Positions 1,405 through 24,094 of a stretch of DNA of 64,000 nt are shown piece after piece. The notes beneath the pieces are model-generated. The model was given only the letters and a program-made list of their open reading frames with translations, was not told the origin of the DNA and made no database searches. Every line of letters starts with the position of its first letter. The first letter of the stretch is position 1. Origin of the DNA: a bacterium (GTDB taxonomy: Bacteria; SZUA-182; DTGQ01); the NCBI GenBank assembly GCA_040755755.1, contig JBFLZW010000002.1, positions 68,337 through 132,336 on the forward strand, in the 5' to 3' direction. The position numbers and the translations under genes were made by a program.

Positions 1405-2301
1405 TCAGACAGCATTATTCACAAAATCCCAGAATGCCTGAGCTGGCGGAGAGAGGGTTTTCGCCAGGAGGTGCACCAGATAGAAATTCCGGGTGAGCCG
1501 GACATCGGACAGAGGGACGGATTTAACCATATTGGCCCTGGTCTCGAAGGCAAGGGCGGCCTTGGGGATAAACGAAATGCCAAGACCGGCAATCACGGCC
1601 CGCTTCACCGCCTCGATGCTGCCCAGCTCAGCCACAATCTGAAGCTCGCCGCGAGAAAGGTTTATCCGGGACAACTCGTTTTCGAAAAGACGTCTGGTCC
1701 CCGATCCCTCCTCTCTCAGAATGAGGGGAAACTCCATCACCTGCGCCAGCGTGATCTTTGGCGGCATTTGAGGAAAATGGGCAGGAGAATAGGTGAGCAG
1801 AAGCTCGTCAGTACCCATAATGCAGGAGGTAAACTGCTCTTCATCGGGTGTACTGCCGACAGCCCCAAGCTCTATTCTCCCCAGGCAGATATCGTGGAAA
1901 ATACTGCCCGTATTTCCCGAGGCCATATGAACGGTGACCTTTGGGTAAGTCTTGAGAAACCTGACAATTATTTCCGGCAGGATATAGGAGGCCGGAATCG
2001 TGCTTGCACCAAGGCCGATTGTTCCCTCGATCCTGCCCAGAAAATTGTTGACCGCACACATGGCTTCCTTCCGGGAAGCGATGACCTTCAATCCCTGCCG
2101 GTACAGGACTTCGCCCACCGGGGTAAGATGGACCCGGCCTTTGCGGCGGTCGAAAACCTGAGCCCCGATTTCGGATTCGACCGTCTTGATATGGGTGCTG
2201 ACCGTGGACTGGCTGATGCCAAGAGTCTGCGCAGCTTCCGAGAAGCTCCCCAGCTCGGCACAGGTGCAGAAAACCTCCAGATGATGGATATCGATATTCA
2301 T
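1405..2301 (-). CDS. LysR-type regulator, selenium-metabolism-associated
   Basis: A 298-residue LysR-type transcriptional regulator. The N-terminal winged helix-turn-helix is clear (SFSEAAQTLGISQSTVSTHI, residues about 19-38), followed by the linker helix and a two-lobed effector domain from about residue 90. The sequence resembles the LysR subfamily that co-occurs with YedF and the Sec machinery, and it closes the selenium island here, 36 bp after the ABC ATPase gene and on the same strand. I infer that it controls the island, perhaps the transporter, in response to a selenium or sulfur metabolite. The effector is unknown, and the usual T-N11-A operator was not pinned down. Confidence 0.82.
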   Translation of the reverse strand: MNIDIHHLEVFCTCAELGSFSEAAQTLGISQSTVSTHIKTVESEIGAQVFDRRKGRVHLTPVGEVLYRQGLKVIASRKEAMCAVNNFLGRIEGTIGLGASTIPASYILPEIIVRFLKTYPKVTVHMASGNTGSIFHDICLGRIELGAVGSTPDEEQFTSCIMGTDELLLTYSPAHFPQMPPKITLAQVMEFPLILREEGSGTRRLFENELSRINLSRGELQIVAELGSIEAVKRAVIAGLGISFIPKAALAFETRANMVKSVPLSDVRLTRNFYLVHLLAKTLSPPAQAFWDFVNNAV

Positions 2302-2337
2302 AGAGAACTATCCTTTCTTATCTCCTTATTGTGTACT

Positions 2338-3039
2338 TTACTGGATATTATTATTATACGATAGCTCGACTACCGTGTCAGCAATTCTCTTCACCTGATC
2401 CAGGTAATGGGAAACCGTCAGGATGGTGCAATGTTCTTTAATGTTCAGCAAAAGCTCCTCAATGACAGCTCCGGCTTTGCTATCCAAAGATGAAGTGGGT
2501 TCATCGAGGAGCAGGATTTCCGGTTCCAGAACCAGTGCCCGGGCAATACAAAGGCGTTGCTGCTGCCCGCCGGATAGAGCAAGTGCACTGTCTGCCAGCC
2601 GGTTTTTAACTTCCTCCCACAGATGGGCATTCTTCAGAGCCTGTTCAACCTTGTGACCGATGAGACTTTTGTCTTTTATTCCAGCCAGTTTTAAGGGAAA
2701 GGCGACATTTTTATAAATGCTCATCAGCAAAGGATTGGGCACCTGAAAGACCATGCCGACCGTCCGCCGTAATTGCGGCAGGGGATAGGACCGGCTATAA
2801 ATATCATGGAAATTCCCATTAAATTTAATTTCTACCATCCCCTTCATTTTAGCCCCTGGTATGCCTTCCCACAATCGATTGAGGGTCATCAGAAAGGTCG
2901 ATTTACCGACCCCTGAAGGACCGATGATGGCAGTGATGGAATTTTCGATAAACTGGACTGTAATATCGCGAAGGACATAGTGATCATGGTATGAAAAATA
3001 GAGATGCGCAGTTTTTATCTTTACCGTCTTCTCATCCAT
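2338..3039 (-). CDS. pstB: Pst-like ABC transporter ATP-binding protein
   Basis: An ABC ATPase of the PstB type: Walker A GPSGVGKST, the Q-loop context VFQVPNPLLMSIYKNVAFPL typical of phosphate transport ATPases, signature LSGGQQQR, Walker B ILLLDEPTSSLD and a switch His in TVSHYLDQ. The open frame extends further 5' but overlaps the permease gene; the start MDEKTVKIK, six bases after the permease stop, is the sensible one, giving 233 residues. It powers the permeases encoded just upstream. Family resemblance says phosphate, but the neighbours are selenium genes and no phoU is present, so another oxyanion such as selenite or selenate is possible. Confidence 0.8.
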   Translation of the reverse strand: MDEKTVKIKTAHLYFSYHDHYVLRDITVQFIENSITAIIGPSGVGKSTFLMTLNRLWEGIPGAKMKGMVEIKFNGNFHDIYSRSYPLPQLRRTVGMVFQVPNPLLMSIYKNVAFPLKLAGIKDKSLIGHKVEQALKNAHLWEEVKNRLADSALALSGGQQQRLCIARALVLEPEILLLDEPTSSLDSKAGAVIEELLLNIKEHCTILTVSHYLDQVKRIADTVVELSYNNNIQ

Positions 3040-3044
3040 AGGGC

Positions 3045-3926
3045 TCAGACGCGATAGAGGATTTGATAGGCCAACTGCCTTTTGATGACAAAGGCAAGCA
3101 GAAAGAGAACAATGCAAATAGTCAGGAGAATGAGCGAAGCTCCATATCCGGTCAAAAGTTCCCGGGTGTTTGAATATTCGGAGGAGATGTAATAGATGTA
3201 AAATGGGAGCGCTTCATAGGGTGAAAGCAAAGACCTGGGCAATCCGGCTGTAGCCACGACGCCGGTGAGCATGATCACGGCTGTGTCTTCTGCACAACGG
3301 CCGATGGCCAGGACAAGGCCGCTCAGGATGCCTGAGAGCGATTGAGGAATGAGGACATAAAAGATGTTCTGAAGCTTTGTGCCCCCCAGAGCCAGGGCTG
3401 TAAGGCGTGTCTTTAAAGGCAGGCTTTCCAGAGAAACCTGAGTTGCGCGAATGATATATGGCAAGACCAAAAAAGAGAGGGATAGACTGGAGATCAAAAG
3501 GGAGGGATAGATGCGCTCGGAGTAGTGTTTATGCAGGAAAACAGCCAGGGCAAATCCTGAGAGACCAATCACGATCGAAGGAATGCTGGCCAGAATATCG
3601 AAAAAGAGATTGAAAAAGGTTTTTGTTTTACCCTGAGCATACTCCGCCAGGTAGATGCCGCAAGCCAGTCCCACCGGAGCCGCCCAACTGACAGATAAGA
3701 CTACGAGACAGATGGTCCCTGCCATAGCCGGAAACAGGCCGTGAAAGACCTGTTTCCGGAAAATGAGCGCTTCGAGAGGCCTGGTTTCACCAAAGACAAG
3801 CTGCATATTTACCGTGCCAATACCTTTGAAAATCAGATAACCGATAATATACGAAATAACGCTTACCAGAGTTATTCCACATATCCACGAAAAGACTACC
3901 ACCAGCTTCTCTCCTGCCCGGTTCAC
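3045..3926 (-). CDS. pstA: Pst-like ABC transporter permease (PstA type)
   Basis: A 293-residue integral membrane protein of the PstA family with about six predicted transmembrane helices. The cytoplasmic EAA-like coupling loop is visible near residues 175-205 (TRLTALALGGTKLQNIFYVL, then IPQSLSGILSG). The start codon overlaps the stop of the preceding permease gene by 4 bp (ATGA), so the two are translationally coupled. It forms the membrane channel with the PstC-type partner and is driven by the ATPase that follows. Substrate by family is inorganic phosphate; the genomic setting leaves room for a selenium oxyanion. Confidence 0.8.
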   Translation of the reverse strand: MNRAGEKLVVVFSWICGITLVSVISYIIGYLIFKGIGTVNMQLVFGETRPLEALIFRKQVFHGLFPAMAGTICLVVLSVSWAAPVGLACGIYLAEYAQGKTKTFFNLFFDILASIPSIVIGLSGFALAVFLHKHYSERIYPSLLISSLSLSFLVLPYIIRATQVSLESLPLKTRLTALALGGTKLQNIFYVLIPQSLSGILSGLVLAIGRCAEDTAVIMLTGVVATAGLPRSLLSPYEALPFYIYYISSEYSNTRELLTGYGASLILLTICIVLFLLAFVIKRQLAYQILYRV

Positions 3927-4789
3927 CTTTTTTCTCTCCCATCCCCTGATCCTGACAACGACCGGGCTCCCAAAACAAGAATGGTCGTAAACAGATAAAG
4001 CACTATACCACAGGCAAAGATGGATTTAAATTCCAGACTTTCATAATCAGCGGCGAACACCAGGGCGATGTGAGATGTCAAAGTTCTGGCTGAATCCAGA
4101 ACCGAGCCGGGAATCTGAATTGCATTTCCGGCAAGCATCAAGGCAATAAGGGTATCGCCGAGAGATCGCCCCAGGGCAAGAATGAACCCGGTCAGGACAC
4201 CCCTAAAGGCGCAGGGCAGGATGACATACAGAAATTTTTGCACTTCGGTTGCGCCTAAAGCGTCAGCAGCATCACGGTAGGATTTTGGCACATGATCAAA
4301 GCTATCGGTGAAAAACAGGATCATGGTCGGAGAAATAAGGACCGCCAGCATCAATGAAGCGGAGAGGATGCACATTCCTGAACCGCTCTGGAACATTTCC
4401 CTGATTCTGGGAACCAGAAGGAACACGCCTACAAACCCATACACAACCGTGGGTATGCCTGTCATAAGCTGAACCGCTTTTCGCAGGAACCGGCTGAATA
4501 TTGCGGGACCAAGAACACTGATCAGTGCGGAACACCCCAAACTCAGCGGAAAAGCGAAGACCAGGCTCAAACCGGCAATAGTCAGCGTGCCCGCGATCAT
4601 GGGATAAATACCGTATGAACCGGAAGCGGGTTCCCACGGCTGAGCCAGGAGGTCAAAAAAATGTCCCCCTCTGATGAGAGGGAGACCCAGGAACACCATG
4701 AATCCCAAAATGATAATAGTTAGAGAAACACTGACCACTGCCGAGAGGAGAAACAGTTTCTCGGCGATCTTTTCACGGATGGTAACCAT
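3923..4789 (-). CDS. pstC: Pst-like ABC transporter permease (PstC type)
   Basis: A 288-residue membrane protein of the PstC family. Hydrophobic helices begin at residues 15-35 and recur throughout. The coupling loop SYRDAADALGATEVQKFLYV lies at about residues 170-190, as expected for a binding-protein-dependent permease. It follows the binding-protein gene after 15 bp and overlaps the next permease gene by 4 bp. The protein pairs with the PstA-type subunit to translocate the ligand delivered by the periplasmic binding protein. Confidence 0.8.
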   Translation of the reverse strand: MVTIREKIAEKLFLLSAVVSVSLTIIILGFMVFLGLPLIRGGHFFDLLAQPWEPASGSYGIYPMIAGTLTIAGLSLVFAFPLSLGCSALISVLGPAIFSRFLRKAVQLMTGIPTVVYGFVGVFLLVPRIREMFQSGSGMCILSASLMLAVLISPTMILFFTDSFDHVPKSYRDAADALGATEVQKFLYVILPCAFRGVLTGFILALGRSLGDTLIALMLAGNAIQIPGSVLDSARTLTSHIALVFAADYESLEFKSIFACGIVLYLFTTILVLGARSLSGSGDGREKR

Positions 4790-4804: not shown

Positions 4805-5641
4805 TCATTTGACCGGGATAAAGCCATTGCTTTCAACGATCTTCTGACCTTCGGGCGTGAAAAGATAATCGATGAACTTTTTCGTCAGACCTGAAGGCTG
4901 GCCTTTGGTATTGCTGTACAACCCTCGACTGACGGTGTACTTGCCCTGTTTTACGTTATCCAGAGTTGGCAATACCCCATCGAAAGCTACCGGGGCCACC
5001 GTCTCATCGATATGGCCCACAGAGACATAGCCTATGCCATAAGGATCCTTTGCTATGGCTGATTTCATTGCTCCGTTGGAGGCGACAAAATTGGCTTTGG
5101 GAGTGATCGCCCCCTTGTCGAGGGCCTTTTCCCAGAAGACTTCACGGGTACCGCTTGCCTCGTCTCTTGTATAGACATTAATTCCCTTATCTGCTCCGCC
5201 AAGGAGTTTCCAGTTGTCGATCTTCCCTGAGAAGATATCAATAACCTGAGCTTTGGTCAGCTTTTTCACTTTGTTATCCGGATGATTAATGATACCTACA
5301 CCGTCAATGGCCCACTGGAATATCGTGAGATTATACCTGGTAATTTCCTCATCGGTGGGTTTGCGTCCGGAATTCCCTATCTGGACCAGACCTTCCCCTA
5401 CCTGCTTGATTCCAACCCCCGAACCACCACCGGCAATGGTTATCTGAATATCCGGATTGACCTCCATAATCTTTTTGGCCGCCTCCTGCATCACCGGAAT
5501 ATGAGCTGTACCTCCGGCTATTTTCAAGGTTCCCTTTTCATCCCTGAAGGAGTCCAGTTCTCCAGCCTGTAAACTCATACCTGCGCCAATGATTAAACAA
5601 ATCGTCATCGACAATGCAATCAGAATATACTTTCGCTTCAT
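4805..5641 (-). CDS. pstS: PstS-like periplasmic oxyanion-binding protein
   Basis: A 278-residue secreted binding protein with a signal peptide (MKRKYILIALSMTICLIIG, cleavage probably after SLQA). Ligand-loop motifs of the PstS fold are present: GGTAHIPVM near the mature N-terminus, GGGSGVGIKQ, IGNSGRKPTDEE and RDEASGTREVF. The loop that holds Asp56 in E. coli PstS reads GNSGRKP here, so the acid that senses protonated phosphate is not obviously conserved, although other short PstS homologues also lack it. It heads the transporter block, 52 bp after a cysteine-desulfurase-family gene of the selenium island. Phosphate is the default ligand; a selenium oxyanion is my alternative inference. Confidence 0.78.
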   Translation of the reverse strand: MKRKYILIALSMTICLIIGAGMSLQAGELDSFRDEKGTLKIAGGTAHIPVMQEAAKKIMEVNPDIQITIAGGGSGVGIKQVGEGLVQIGNSGRKPTDEEITRYNLTIFQWAIDGVGIINHPDNKVKKLTKAQVIDIFSGKIDNWKLLGGADKGINVYTRDEASGTREVFWEKALDKGAITPKANFVASNGAMKSAIAKDPYGIGYVSVGHIDETVAPVAFDGVLPTLDNVKQGKYTVSRGLYSNTKGQPSGLTKKFIDYLFTPEGQKIVESNGFIPVK

Positions 5642-20289: not shown

Positions 20290-22773
20290 ATGATCAAGAA
20301 GGATTACTATGAAATCTTGGAAGTCCCTCGGAATGCTGCCCCGGAAGAGATAAAGAAAGCCTATCGGAAAAAGGCGCTCCAATATCATCCGGACCGCAAT
20401 CCGGGCAACCCGGAGGCGGAGGAAAAATTCAAAGAGGCTTCCGAAGCCTACGAGGTTCTGAGCGATGCCCAGAAGAGGAGCCTCTACGATCAATTCGGCC
20501 ATGCAGGCCTGCAGAATTCGGGCTTTACCGGCTTTAACTTCGATGATATATTCGGGAGTGACCTTTTCAGCAGTTTCGGTGATATTTTCGGAGATTTCTT
20601 CGGGTTCAGAACCGGAAGGTCCGGCCGTCCGCGTCCGGCACGGGGAGCGGACCTTGGGCAGGAGGTAGCGATCTCTTTTCGTGAGGCGGCCTTTGGACTG
20701 GAAACCGATATTGAAGTGGAAAGACACGAAACCTGCCCGACCTGCCAGGGGAGCGGAACAAAACCCGGCACGTCACCACAGGTCTGCCGCATCTGCGGCG
20801 GACGGGGGCAGGTGCAGCGCACCCAGGGCTTTTTAAGCATTACCACCGTTTGTCCGCAGTGCCGGGGCACCGGTCAGGTGATAGAATCCCCCTGTCCGCA
20901 GTGCCGGGCAATGGGCAAAGTACCCCAGAAGAGAAAACTGCATGTCAAGATCCCCGCTGGTGTAGATAATGGCTCCCAGCTCCGGCTGCTGGGAGAAGGA
21001 GCGCTCGGAGAGCGGGGAGGTCCCCCCGGTGATCTTTACATCACCATTCAGGTCAAAGAGGATGATTTTTTCTCCCGCAAGGATGACGATGTGCTGTGCA
21101 CTGTTCCCATATCCTTTGCCCAGGCTGCCCTGGGAGCGGAAATCGAGGTTCCGACACTCTCCGGGCCGCATAAACTGGAAATCCCCCGGGGAACGCAGAG
21201 CGGTACCGTGATGCGGATTAAAAAAGCGGGCTTTCCCAATGTCTACGGCAAGGGAAAGGGAGACCAACTGGTAACGATCGTCGTGGAGGTCCCCACCAGT
21301 CTTACGCCCCGGCAGGAAGAGCTGTTGCGCAAATTCGACCAGGCAGGGGATGAAAAAAAGCCGCATCAGGAGGAGAAACAGCACAAGAAGGGTTTTTTCC
21401 ATTTTCTGGGATTGTTGTCGCTGGTTTTTTTTCTGCTCCTGACTTCGACTTCCCCGGCCGGGGCATCGGCGGATGCTGCCCGTGAGGGTCGCAAGACGCC
21501 AATTGTCAAAGTGGTCGAGAAGGTGAGCCCGGCGGTAGTCAATATCAGTACCGAACGGATTGTGCGGGAGAGAGTCAATCCTTTTGGCAATCCCTTCTTC
21601 GATAATTTTTTCGATAATTTTTTCGATACCTTTCCTCCGAGGAGCTACAAGGAGCAGAGCCTGGGATCGGGAGTTATCATTGATCCCAAAGGACACATTC
21701 TGACCAATGAGCACGTTATCCTCAAGGCCTCCAAAATCAAAATCACCCTGGCCGACAACCGCGAGTTCGAGGGGAAACTGGTCGGTTCTGATCCCCGCTC
21801 GGATCTGGCCGTCGTGAAAATAGATTCTCCGAAAAACCTGCCCTATATCACTACCGGACAATCCGAGGATCTGATGGTGGGTGAAACGGTAGTGGCCATC
21901 GGAAACCCTTTCGGCCTCTCTCATACCGTAACCACCGGGGTGATCAGCGCTGTCAACCGCACGGTAAAGGTTAACGAAGACCTTGTCTACCACGGTTTCA
22001 TTCAGACAGACGCTTCCATCAATCCCGGAAACAGTGGAGGGCCGCTGATGAATATCACCGGGGAGTTGATCGGCATTAATACTGCCATTTACCAGAAAGC
22101 CGAGGGGATAGGTTTCGCTATTCCCATCGACCGGGCCAAAAGAATTATTGCCGACCTGATCACCTATGGCAAGGTCCGCAAGGTCTGGCTGGGGATTCGT
22201 GTTCAAAATCTTACCAGGGACCTGGCAGGCTATTTCAACCTCAGTCATCCGGCGGCAGGGGTCATTGTCACCCGCATCATCGACGGCAGTCCGGCTGAGA
22301 AGGCAGGGCTTCAGCGGGGAGACATCATCCAGAAAATCAATAGCGATCAGATCGCTTCCCAGGAGGTTTATTCCTCGGTTGTGGCCGGATTTACCGCGGA
22401 CAGTGAGATGAAAATCTCGGTGTTGCGGGAAGGAAAGCCCCTGACCATCGACATTAAACCTGCCCGGCTGACCCAGGAGATTGCTGAAAAAATTGCCAAA
22501 GACCTGCTTGGTTTGACCGTCAAGGGGTTTAGCTCTTCATTCGGGGGAATGGGCGAGCGGGACTCCGGCGTGGCTGTAAGCTCTGTCCGGGGCAGGAGCC
22601 CCGTTGCCAAGGCAGGCATCCAAAAGGGAGACATCATCCGCCGGATCAATGATAAGGAGATACAAAACCTGAAAGATTTTCAGGAAGTTATCATTGCCAA
22701 TGCCGATCGGGACAGCCTGCTCCTTCTGGTCCAAAGAGGACCTTATATTTATCCGGTCACGATCGGTTTCTAA
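20290..22773 (+). CDS. DnaJ chaperone - HtrA/DegP serine protease fusion
   Basis: One uninterrupted 827-codon frame. Residues 1-365 are a complete DnaJ: J domain with HPD at 33-35, Gly/Phe-rich stretch (70-110), four zinc motifs ([32 protein letters not shown] at about 149-209) and the C-terminal substrate domains. Residues 366-394 are a hydrophobic segment ending PAGASA, like an HtrA signal peptide. Residues 400-827 are a complete HtrA protease with His475 (TNEHV), Asp505 (RSDLAVV), Ser582 (GNSGGP) and two PDZ domains (about 635-725 and 740-827). As drawn, the cochaperone is cytoplasmic and the protease periplasmic, tethered through the membrane. Alternative: two overlapping genes. ATG 21350 lies in the +1 frame and opens [14 protein letters not shown], and a single extra T in the run 21393-21398 would join it to the HtrA frame. 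Confidence 0.85.
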
Positions 22774-23032: not shown

Positions 23033-24094
23033 ATGAAGAAGTGCAATTCCCTGGGTCGGCTGCTGGTAATTTCAACCGCTTATACTGTGCTCTTATTCCT
23101 GCTGACTATGACTATCTCGCCTGGCAACTGCCAGGTACCGTCTTCCTACCCATATACCACGTATCCTTATACAACGTATCCGACCGGCACTACGAGCGGA
23201 TATCCCTACACGGTGTATCCGAGCCAATCTGCTACATCTTACTCTTACTCACCGCTGACAGGTTACACTGTTAATCCCTATACTCAGGCGACTGCCGCGG
23301 TCCCTTATGGGACCACATACGGGACTACCTATCCGCAGTATGGTACTTCCTATACTACGGTGCCATCCTACGGCACTTCGGCCTATGGCCTGCCTGTATA
23401 TGGTACTTCCGGATATAATATCCTGGTGATCGCTGCTCCTTCGAATTCTTATACCAATCCCTTATCCTCGTATCCTGCCATAAGTACCTATCCAGGCACA
23501 TATCCTTTTGATGGCAGAATAGCGGCCATTTATCTGCCGACGCAGAGCACCTATCCTGCGTATCCGACATACCCTGCGTATCCTGCGTATCCGACGACGC
23601 CTGCGTATTCGACCTATCCGACCTATCCTGCGTATCCGACGACGCCTGCGTATTCGACATACCCGACCTATCCGACATACCCGACATATTCTACGTATCC
23701 GACCTATCCGACATACCCGACGACACAGACGTATCCGACCACACCTACCTATTCAACGAGTGTATCGGGCGGGTGGAGCGGTTCCTGGGTAAGTAACGGA
23801 ACCCAGGGAGGCGCTTCTCTTACCCTGACTCAGAGCGGAACCACGCTGACTGGCACGATAAACCTTACATCTTCGAATGGTCAGGCCAAATTGAACGCCA
23901 ATGTCAATGGAAGCATGAGCGGTACTACCCTGCAGCTTTGGGCAACTATTAATGGAGGTACGGATATCTTCAACCTGAGTATCATCGGAAACATTAACGG
24001 AACCGTGCTGAACGGCAATTACCGGATTACCAACAACAGCAGTATCGAGCTGGAATCCGGGACGCTTAACCTGGTCAAATCATCGCTCTATTAA
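23033..24094 (+). CDS. Secreted Tyr/Pro/Thr-repeat protein with C-terminal beta domain
   Basis: A 353-residue exported protein of unknown function. A signal peptide spans residues 1-34 (cleavage near GNCQ). Residues 35-240 are low-complexity and rich in Tyr, Pro, Thr and Ser, with dense tandem YPTYP/YPAYP/YSTYP units at about 175-240 (23560-23750). Residues 245-353 look like a compact beta-sheet domain with alternating hydrophobic/Thr-Ser strands (GGASLTLTQSGTTLTGTINL). A good ribosome-binding site (AAGGAGAT) precedes the ATG. The repeat resembles extended wall- or adhesion-type Pro/Tyr repeats and could be crosslinked or glycosylated; that is inference only. Confidence 0.75.
   Translation: MKKCNSLGRLLVISTAYTVLLFLLTMTISPGNCQVPSSYPYTTYPYTTYPTGTTSGYPYTVYPSQSATSYSYSPLTGYTVNPYTQATAAVPYGTTYGTTYPQYGTSYTTVPSYGTSAYGLPVYGTSGYNILVIAAPSNSYTNPLSSYPAISTYPGTYPFDGRIAAIYLPTQSTYPAYPTYPAYPAYPTTPAYSTYPTYPAYPTTPAYSTYPTYPTYPTYSTYPTYPTYPTTQTYPTTPTYSTSVSGGWSGSWVSNGTQGGASLTLTQSGTTLTGTINLTSSNGQAKLNANVNGSMSGTTLQLWATINGGTDIFNLSIIGNINGTVLNGNYRITNNSSIELESGTLNLVKSSLY

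Follow-up and report, generated by a model that had tools for sequence, protein, structure and literature searches.

The window analysed here is a stretch of 64,000 nucleotides belonging to a genome (G000) of 5.26 Mb in 88 contigs. On its forward strand, positions 20290-22773 form one frame of 827 codons that starts with ATG and contains no internal stop. An earlier note on this DNA had read the frame as a complete DnaJ joined to a complete HtrA, and this reading was borne out by the ORF itself, by Pfam and by the curated cut-offs of NCBIfam. The features of the locus are as follows.

20290-22773, forward strand: fused dnaJ-htrA gene, 827 aa, about 90 kDa; a single open frame, with the same architecture at L038, L041 and L039
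20302-20490, forward strand: J domain, residues 5-67, HPD at 33-35 (PF00226, E 1.5e-28)
20662-21294, forward strand: DnaJ substrate-binding/C-terminal domain (residues 125-335) including the zinc-finger domain (149-207; four CxxC) (PF01556, PF00684); cysteines invariant in four genomes
21295-21393, forward strand: DnaJ tail and Lys/Glu-rich linker (about 336-368) with a basic KKG motif at its end; variable in length, with in-frame indels only (alignment of the four fusions)
21350-21442, forward strand: short +1-frame ORF (30 codons plus TGA) starting ATG AAA AAA; probable relic of an ancestral htrA start, the htrA start (TTG) of G004 lying at the corresponding place with the same offset
21391-21447, forward strand: hydrophobic membrane segment (about 368-386), from the DnaJ tail and the HtrA signal h-region (Kyte-Doolittle 2.03; AlphaFold helix 370-384)
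21463-21474, forward strand: candidate signal peptidase I site, GASA before D, with the cut after residue 394 (A-S-A); A-x-A motif in three of the four fusions
21664-22077, forward strand: trypsin-like protease domain (459-596), triad H475, D505, S582 (PF13365, E 1.3e-34); residues invariant in four genomes
22189-22770, forward strand: two PDZ domains (about 634-723 and 757-827) (PF13180, PF17820)

The fused protein reached a whole-length score of 444 bits against the bacterial DnaJ model of NCBIfam (DnaJ_bact, TIGR02349; curated cut-off, 377 bits) and 445 bits against that of the Do family endopeptidases (TIGR02037; curated cut-off, 416 bits). The residues and the two PDZ domains named in the earlier note were correctly identified: HPD 33-35, the zinc-finger cysteines (C149/152, C166/169, C188/191 and C202/205) and the catalytic H475, D505 and S582 are invariant in all four fused proteins described below. 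The fourth zinc motif of the window protein reads CPQCRAMG, and its PF00684 match lies above the cut-off. As in bacterial DnaJ of class A (TIGR02349), the J domain with its HPD is accompanied by a G/F region, four CxxC motifs and the C-terminal domains, whereas the fusion runs on into a membrane segment and a protease and is not encoded beside dnaK. Likewise, the protease half shares with DegP and DegQ (Do/HtrA, TIGR02037) the trypsin-like domain, the catalytic triad (His-Asp-Ser, with GNSGG) and two PDZ domains, but it lacks a start and a signal peptide of its own, its N-terminal region being a whole DnaJ. The closest solved structures to this half are DegQ, DegP-like and other Do chains. By these family assignments, one half is an ordinary class A DnaJ and the other an ordinary Do/HtrA protein.

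The segment between them reads as a typical DnaJ tail (KKGFF; compare PEKKGFFDRLL in the relative G008) running into the former signal-peptide h-region of HtrA. Its hydrophobic part, 17-20 residues long, is the top-scoring 19-residue window in each of the fused proteins (Kyte-Doolittle 2.0-2.6), and AlphaFold draws a helix at residues 370-384 between low-confidence linkers in a model that is poor overall (mean pLDDT 66, pTM 0.31). The protease core of this model, built on a shallow alignment, has a pLDDT below 50, and the model is uninformative on topology.

Directly downstream of the fusion in four out of four genomes lies a gene whose product looks secreted and combines Tyr/Pro/Thr repeats with a conserved C-terminal part (window 23033-24094; L038 6841-7950; L041 6766-7830; L039 2957-3922). 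The window copy had no Pfam or NCBIfam match; the protein is possibly a client or a co-regulated partner of the fusion. No HrcA/CIRCE heat-shock operator was found in the window.

Conservation and origin of the fusion

Nine genomes of the window's phylum were compared, the relatives being metagenome-assembled. The same long architecture, sought in these relatives, was present, as an uninterrupted in-frame fusion, in each of the four genomes examined from this family of uncultured bacteria (G000 to G003, from three genera), with 83% identity to the window protein in G001, of the same genus, and 71% in each of G002 and G003, of other genera. Three of these fusions also stand in the public records JAILZY010000018 (L038), DAOURK010000024 (L041) and JAUWIR010000340 (L039), whose contig names give read depths of 19, 1333 and 48, respectively, and the assemblies differ.

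The earlier note had cautioned that a T missing from the T6 run at 21393-21398 might conceal two overlapping genes, the second opening at a +1-frame ATG at 21350. Both the run and the ATG are present, as is a T8 run at 21425-21432 that the earlier note did not list. An error of assembly or sequencing would fall at a homopolymer, and exactly such an overlapping pair exists in G004. The same mistake, however, would be needed in four genomes of three genera, and the length of the T-run varies among the fusions (6, 6, 7 and 6) while the frame is kept in all; no fusion has an added T that breaks it into two genes. Furthermore, the linker joining DnaJ to the membrane segment holds several indels, every one a multiple of three in the alignment of the four fusions, and across linker and membrane segment pS (0.67-0.93) exceeds pN (0.31-0.46) in every pair of fusions. 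Thus, the junction appears to be translated in frame 0 and selected as protein, the linker being under purifying selection in that frame. Because the fusion is conserved in all four family genomes examined, we reject a frameshift error as the cause of the single frame, an explanation with next to no probability left, and hold it nearly certain from the coding sequence that DnaJ and HtrA are encoded as a single chain.

The relatives examined from outside the family have dnaJ and htrA as separate genes. Separate or overlapping genes in relatives, which the earlier note would have counted against a genuine fusion, are thus found beyond the family, including an overlap within the same order, but not inside the family, where four of four are fused. 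In the genome of the same order, G004, the two genes overlap by 50 nt with a +1 offset, which is the frame that had concerned the earlier note; htrA must here start at a TTG inside dnaJ (TCAGGATA TTG AGA AAA AAA AGG), 50 nt before the end of the dnaJ stop. The genes abut in G005 (TAA, then GAAGTAACC ATG), are neighbours with a short gap between them in G006 and are parted by one gene in G007; next to dnaJ of G008, no htrA was seen. In G043 (L013/L090), a genome from another phylum, the two genes abut in one and the same frame, a single TAG standing between them, one step from a fusion, and no such fusion was found in the seven genomes of that phylum that were examined. A search of 386 sampled genomes, mostly from other families of Bacteria, likewise returned no further in-frame DnaJ-HtrA fusion outside the family at E 1e-130, a threshold that weaker or rarer cases could escape.

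The DnaJ tree placed the four fused proteins in one clade (support 100/99), whose sister was the separate DnaJ of G004 (99/95). They also formed one clade in the HtrA tree (100/98), from which only this monophyly was taken, one very long row (L037_H) leaving the tree poorly resolved. The overlap of the G004 type is probably the ancestral state, and the layout with one extra T that the earlier note envisaged would be very like the state that the family has left. The trees and gene orders fit a single fusion event in the ancestor of the family, from its native gene pair, in which a frame-restoring change would have joined the overlapping dnaJ and htrA.

Starts and frames at the junction

In frame 0 of G001, neither ATG nor GTG nor TTG occurs from the end of DnaJ to the mature protease, and G000, G002 and G003 have only TTG codons, lying either in the tail of DnaJ or within the hydrophobic core, plus a GTG after the segment. 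Separate initiation of htrA was rejected, in-frame starts before the protease domain being few and G001 having none before the mature part.

In the +1 frame, both members of the window's genus (G000 and G001) carry ATG AAA AAA behind a purine-rich, SD-like stretch (window 21350-21442; L038 about 5094-5153). This frame closes after 30 codons in G000 and after 19 in G001, and use of its ATG would require a -1 shift near the T-run. Since htrA of G004 starts inside dnaJ in the same +1 offset, we regard the ATG as a relic. The locus could otherwise have a dual output, with free HtrA made from this ATG by a -1 shift on the T-run in addition to the fusion, or free DnaJ released by ribosomes that slip and then stop. 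The retention of the SD-like sequence and start in both genomes of the genus, and the six to seven T at Phe-Phe codons in all four fusions (with T8 in G000), would be in line with such an output. We nevertheless consider it improbable, as the +1-frame ATG is absent from the junction in G002 and G003, T6 or longer occurs anyway at 13 of the 37 Phe-Phe pairs of the window's ORFs and the linker shows no suppressed synonymous change. A conserved programmed frameshift was rejected on the first two of these grounds.

Predicted topology and possible processing of the chain

DnaJ works with DnaK in the cytoplasm, and HtrA proteases with two PDZ domains work in the periplasm. Basic residues directly precede the hydrophobic segment of the fusion, which should for this reason insert with its N-terminal side in and its C-terminal side out. 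The earlier note had placed DnaJ and HtrA on opposite faces of the membrane; family knowledge and the hydrophobic segment support this well, and we infer from them that DnaJ very likely lies inside and HtrA outside.

Following the segment, which sits together with its A-x-A motif 367 residues inside the chain, three of the fusions carry the motif at the position expected for signal peptidase I (ASA in G000, ANA in G001 and ASA in G003); G002 has no clean A-x-A, only VKG or KGS. The background rate of A.A is 2.2% of 8-residue stretches of the fused proteins, and G000 encodes two signal peptidase I-type proteins. That the motif was kept on both sides of the deepest split of the family while the remaining linker changed speaks for cleavage in some members at least; given the lack of a clean motif in G002, it may not occur throughout the family. 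Judging from the motif, we lean slightly towards signal peptidase cutting a substantial part of the molecules. By computed mass, such a cut would yield a C-terminally anchored DnaJ of 43 kDa and a soluble HtrA of 47 kDa.

The earlier note had suggested that the chain could couple the sensing of cytoplasmic and envelope stress. On that reading, the fusion would be a stable bitopic protein in which DnaJ inside and HtrA outside stay joined, coupling the recruitment of DnaK with periplasmic proteolysis. Consistent with it, the single frame and the hydrophobic segment are conserved in four genomes, and G002 is without a clean cleavage motif. On the other hand, A-x-A was retained in both deep branches of the family despite strong divergence of the linker, HtrA of the relatives with separate genes has ordinary signal peptides, and no signalling feature was found in the sequence. 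A chain that is never cleaved has a real but lesser chance of being the true state; the odds of cleavage into two proteins would be no lower than those of a permanent connection through the membrane. That the two stress systems are functionally coupled across the membrane is doubtful, and an intact membrane-spanning machine, in which the sole class A DnaJ on the inside cooperates with a Do-type protease on the outside, is similarly unlikely. Such a machine may, for instance, hand membrane or secreted clients of DnaK to the periplasmic protease, or cluster DnaJ at the membrane through the oligomerisation of HtrA.

In the reading that we prefer, with partial cleavage, the ribosome would make one chain whose DnaJ part folds in the cytoplasm, and the former HtrA signal peptide would insert in the inner membrane, its N side facing the cytoplasm, allowing HtrA to reach the periplasm. 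Signal peptidase I would probably cut at least part of the molecules after A-x-A; DnaJ would then be held by a tail anchor on the inner face of the membrane and HtrA released into the periplasm, while uncut molecules would span the membrane. A class A DnaJ so placed would recruit DnaK to membrane clients or exported ones, and would be made in a 1:1 ratio with a periplasmic quality-control protease. This explanation as a whole, comprising a one-time fusion in the family, a DnaJ-in/HtrA-out topology, partial cleavage by signal peptidase and a membrane-held class A DnaJ, seems to us quite probable.

Chaperone and protease context

Each of the four fused genomes encodes a single PF00684 protein, which is the fusion. 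As far as these genomes, 91-98% complete, show, none has a free class A DnaJ gene. Genes for DnaK are present in each. In G000, dnaK is followed by grpE, a gene for a 335-aa J-protein without a zinc finger (class B, CbpA-like) and htpG; a class B J-gene likewise follows dnaK in G001. G000 also encodes further J-domain proteins, as well as a second HtrA-like protein (497 aa) that has an N-terminal hydrophobic segment of its own. With the class B J-protein and the second HtrA, the cell could keep up both DnaK cycles in the cytosol and proteolysis in the periplasm independently of the fusion, and the soluble class B J-protein encoded beside dnaK would serve the cytosol. This spare capacity may have allowed the fusion to arise.

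Matches to the Hsp70 ATPase domain were also seen within long frames of 789 and 990 codons in G000 (C60:12211-13389 and C55:83848-84849), with similar cases in G001 to G003; these look like unusual Hsp70-containing multidomain proteins. At L073 in G005 (C127, about 2008-4303), several short ORFs carry DnaJ-like CxxCxGxG motifs, with no J-domain match there.

Two known kinds of membrane-bound protein resemble one half of the fusion each. DjlB and DjlC of E. coli are tail-anchored J-proteins of class C (PMC8215388). Together with DjlA, they would share with the fusion the placing of a J-domain protein at the inner membrane; they differ in being of class C and in having neither zinc finger nor protease, whereas the fusion is the only class A DnaJ of its genome. 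By Pfam it carries the class A domain set, and no DjlA model was among its 25 best NCBIfam matches. DegS is a membrane-anchored HtrA, a periplasmic protease with an N-terminal membrane segment, one PDZ domain and a short cytoplasmic tail. The fusion would resemble it in having a membrane segment before a periplasmic HtrA protease, but it scored 251 bits against the DegS family, for which the cut-off is 423, and has two PDZ domains. By domain content, the fused protein is neither DegS nor DjlA. Among the open-access papers searched, we found no description of a DnaJ-HtrA or DnaJ-DegP fusion, and one of them, on DjlA, made no link to HtrA or DegP. What appears to be new is the combination of DnaJ with HtrA together with the lack of a free class A DnaJ gene.

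DnaJ and HtrA are among the best-known stress proteins, and in well-studied bacteria the inner membrane lies between them. In this family their joint is fixed throughout, and no other form of class A DnaJ was found in its genomes. If the chain stays intact, it would physically link the work of Hsp70 to envelope proteolysis. If it is cut, a signal peptide would be working behind a folded domain of 367 residues, and a class A DnaJ would have been turned into a tail-anchored protein. The family would also offer an example of two overlapping genes becoming one through a small change of frame.
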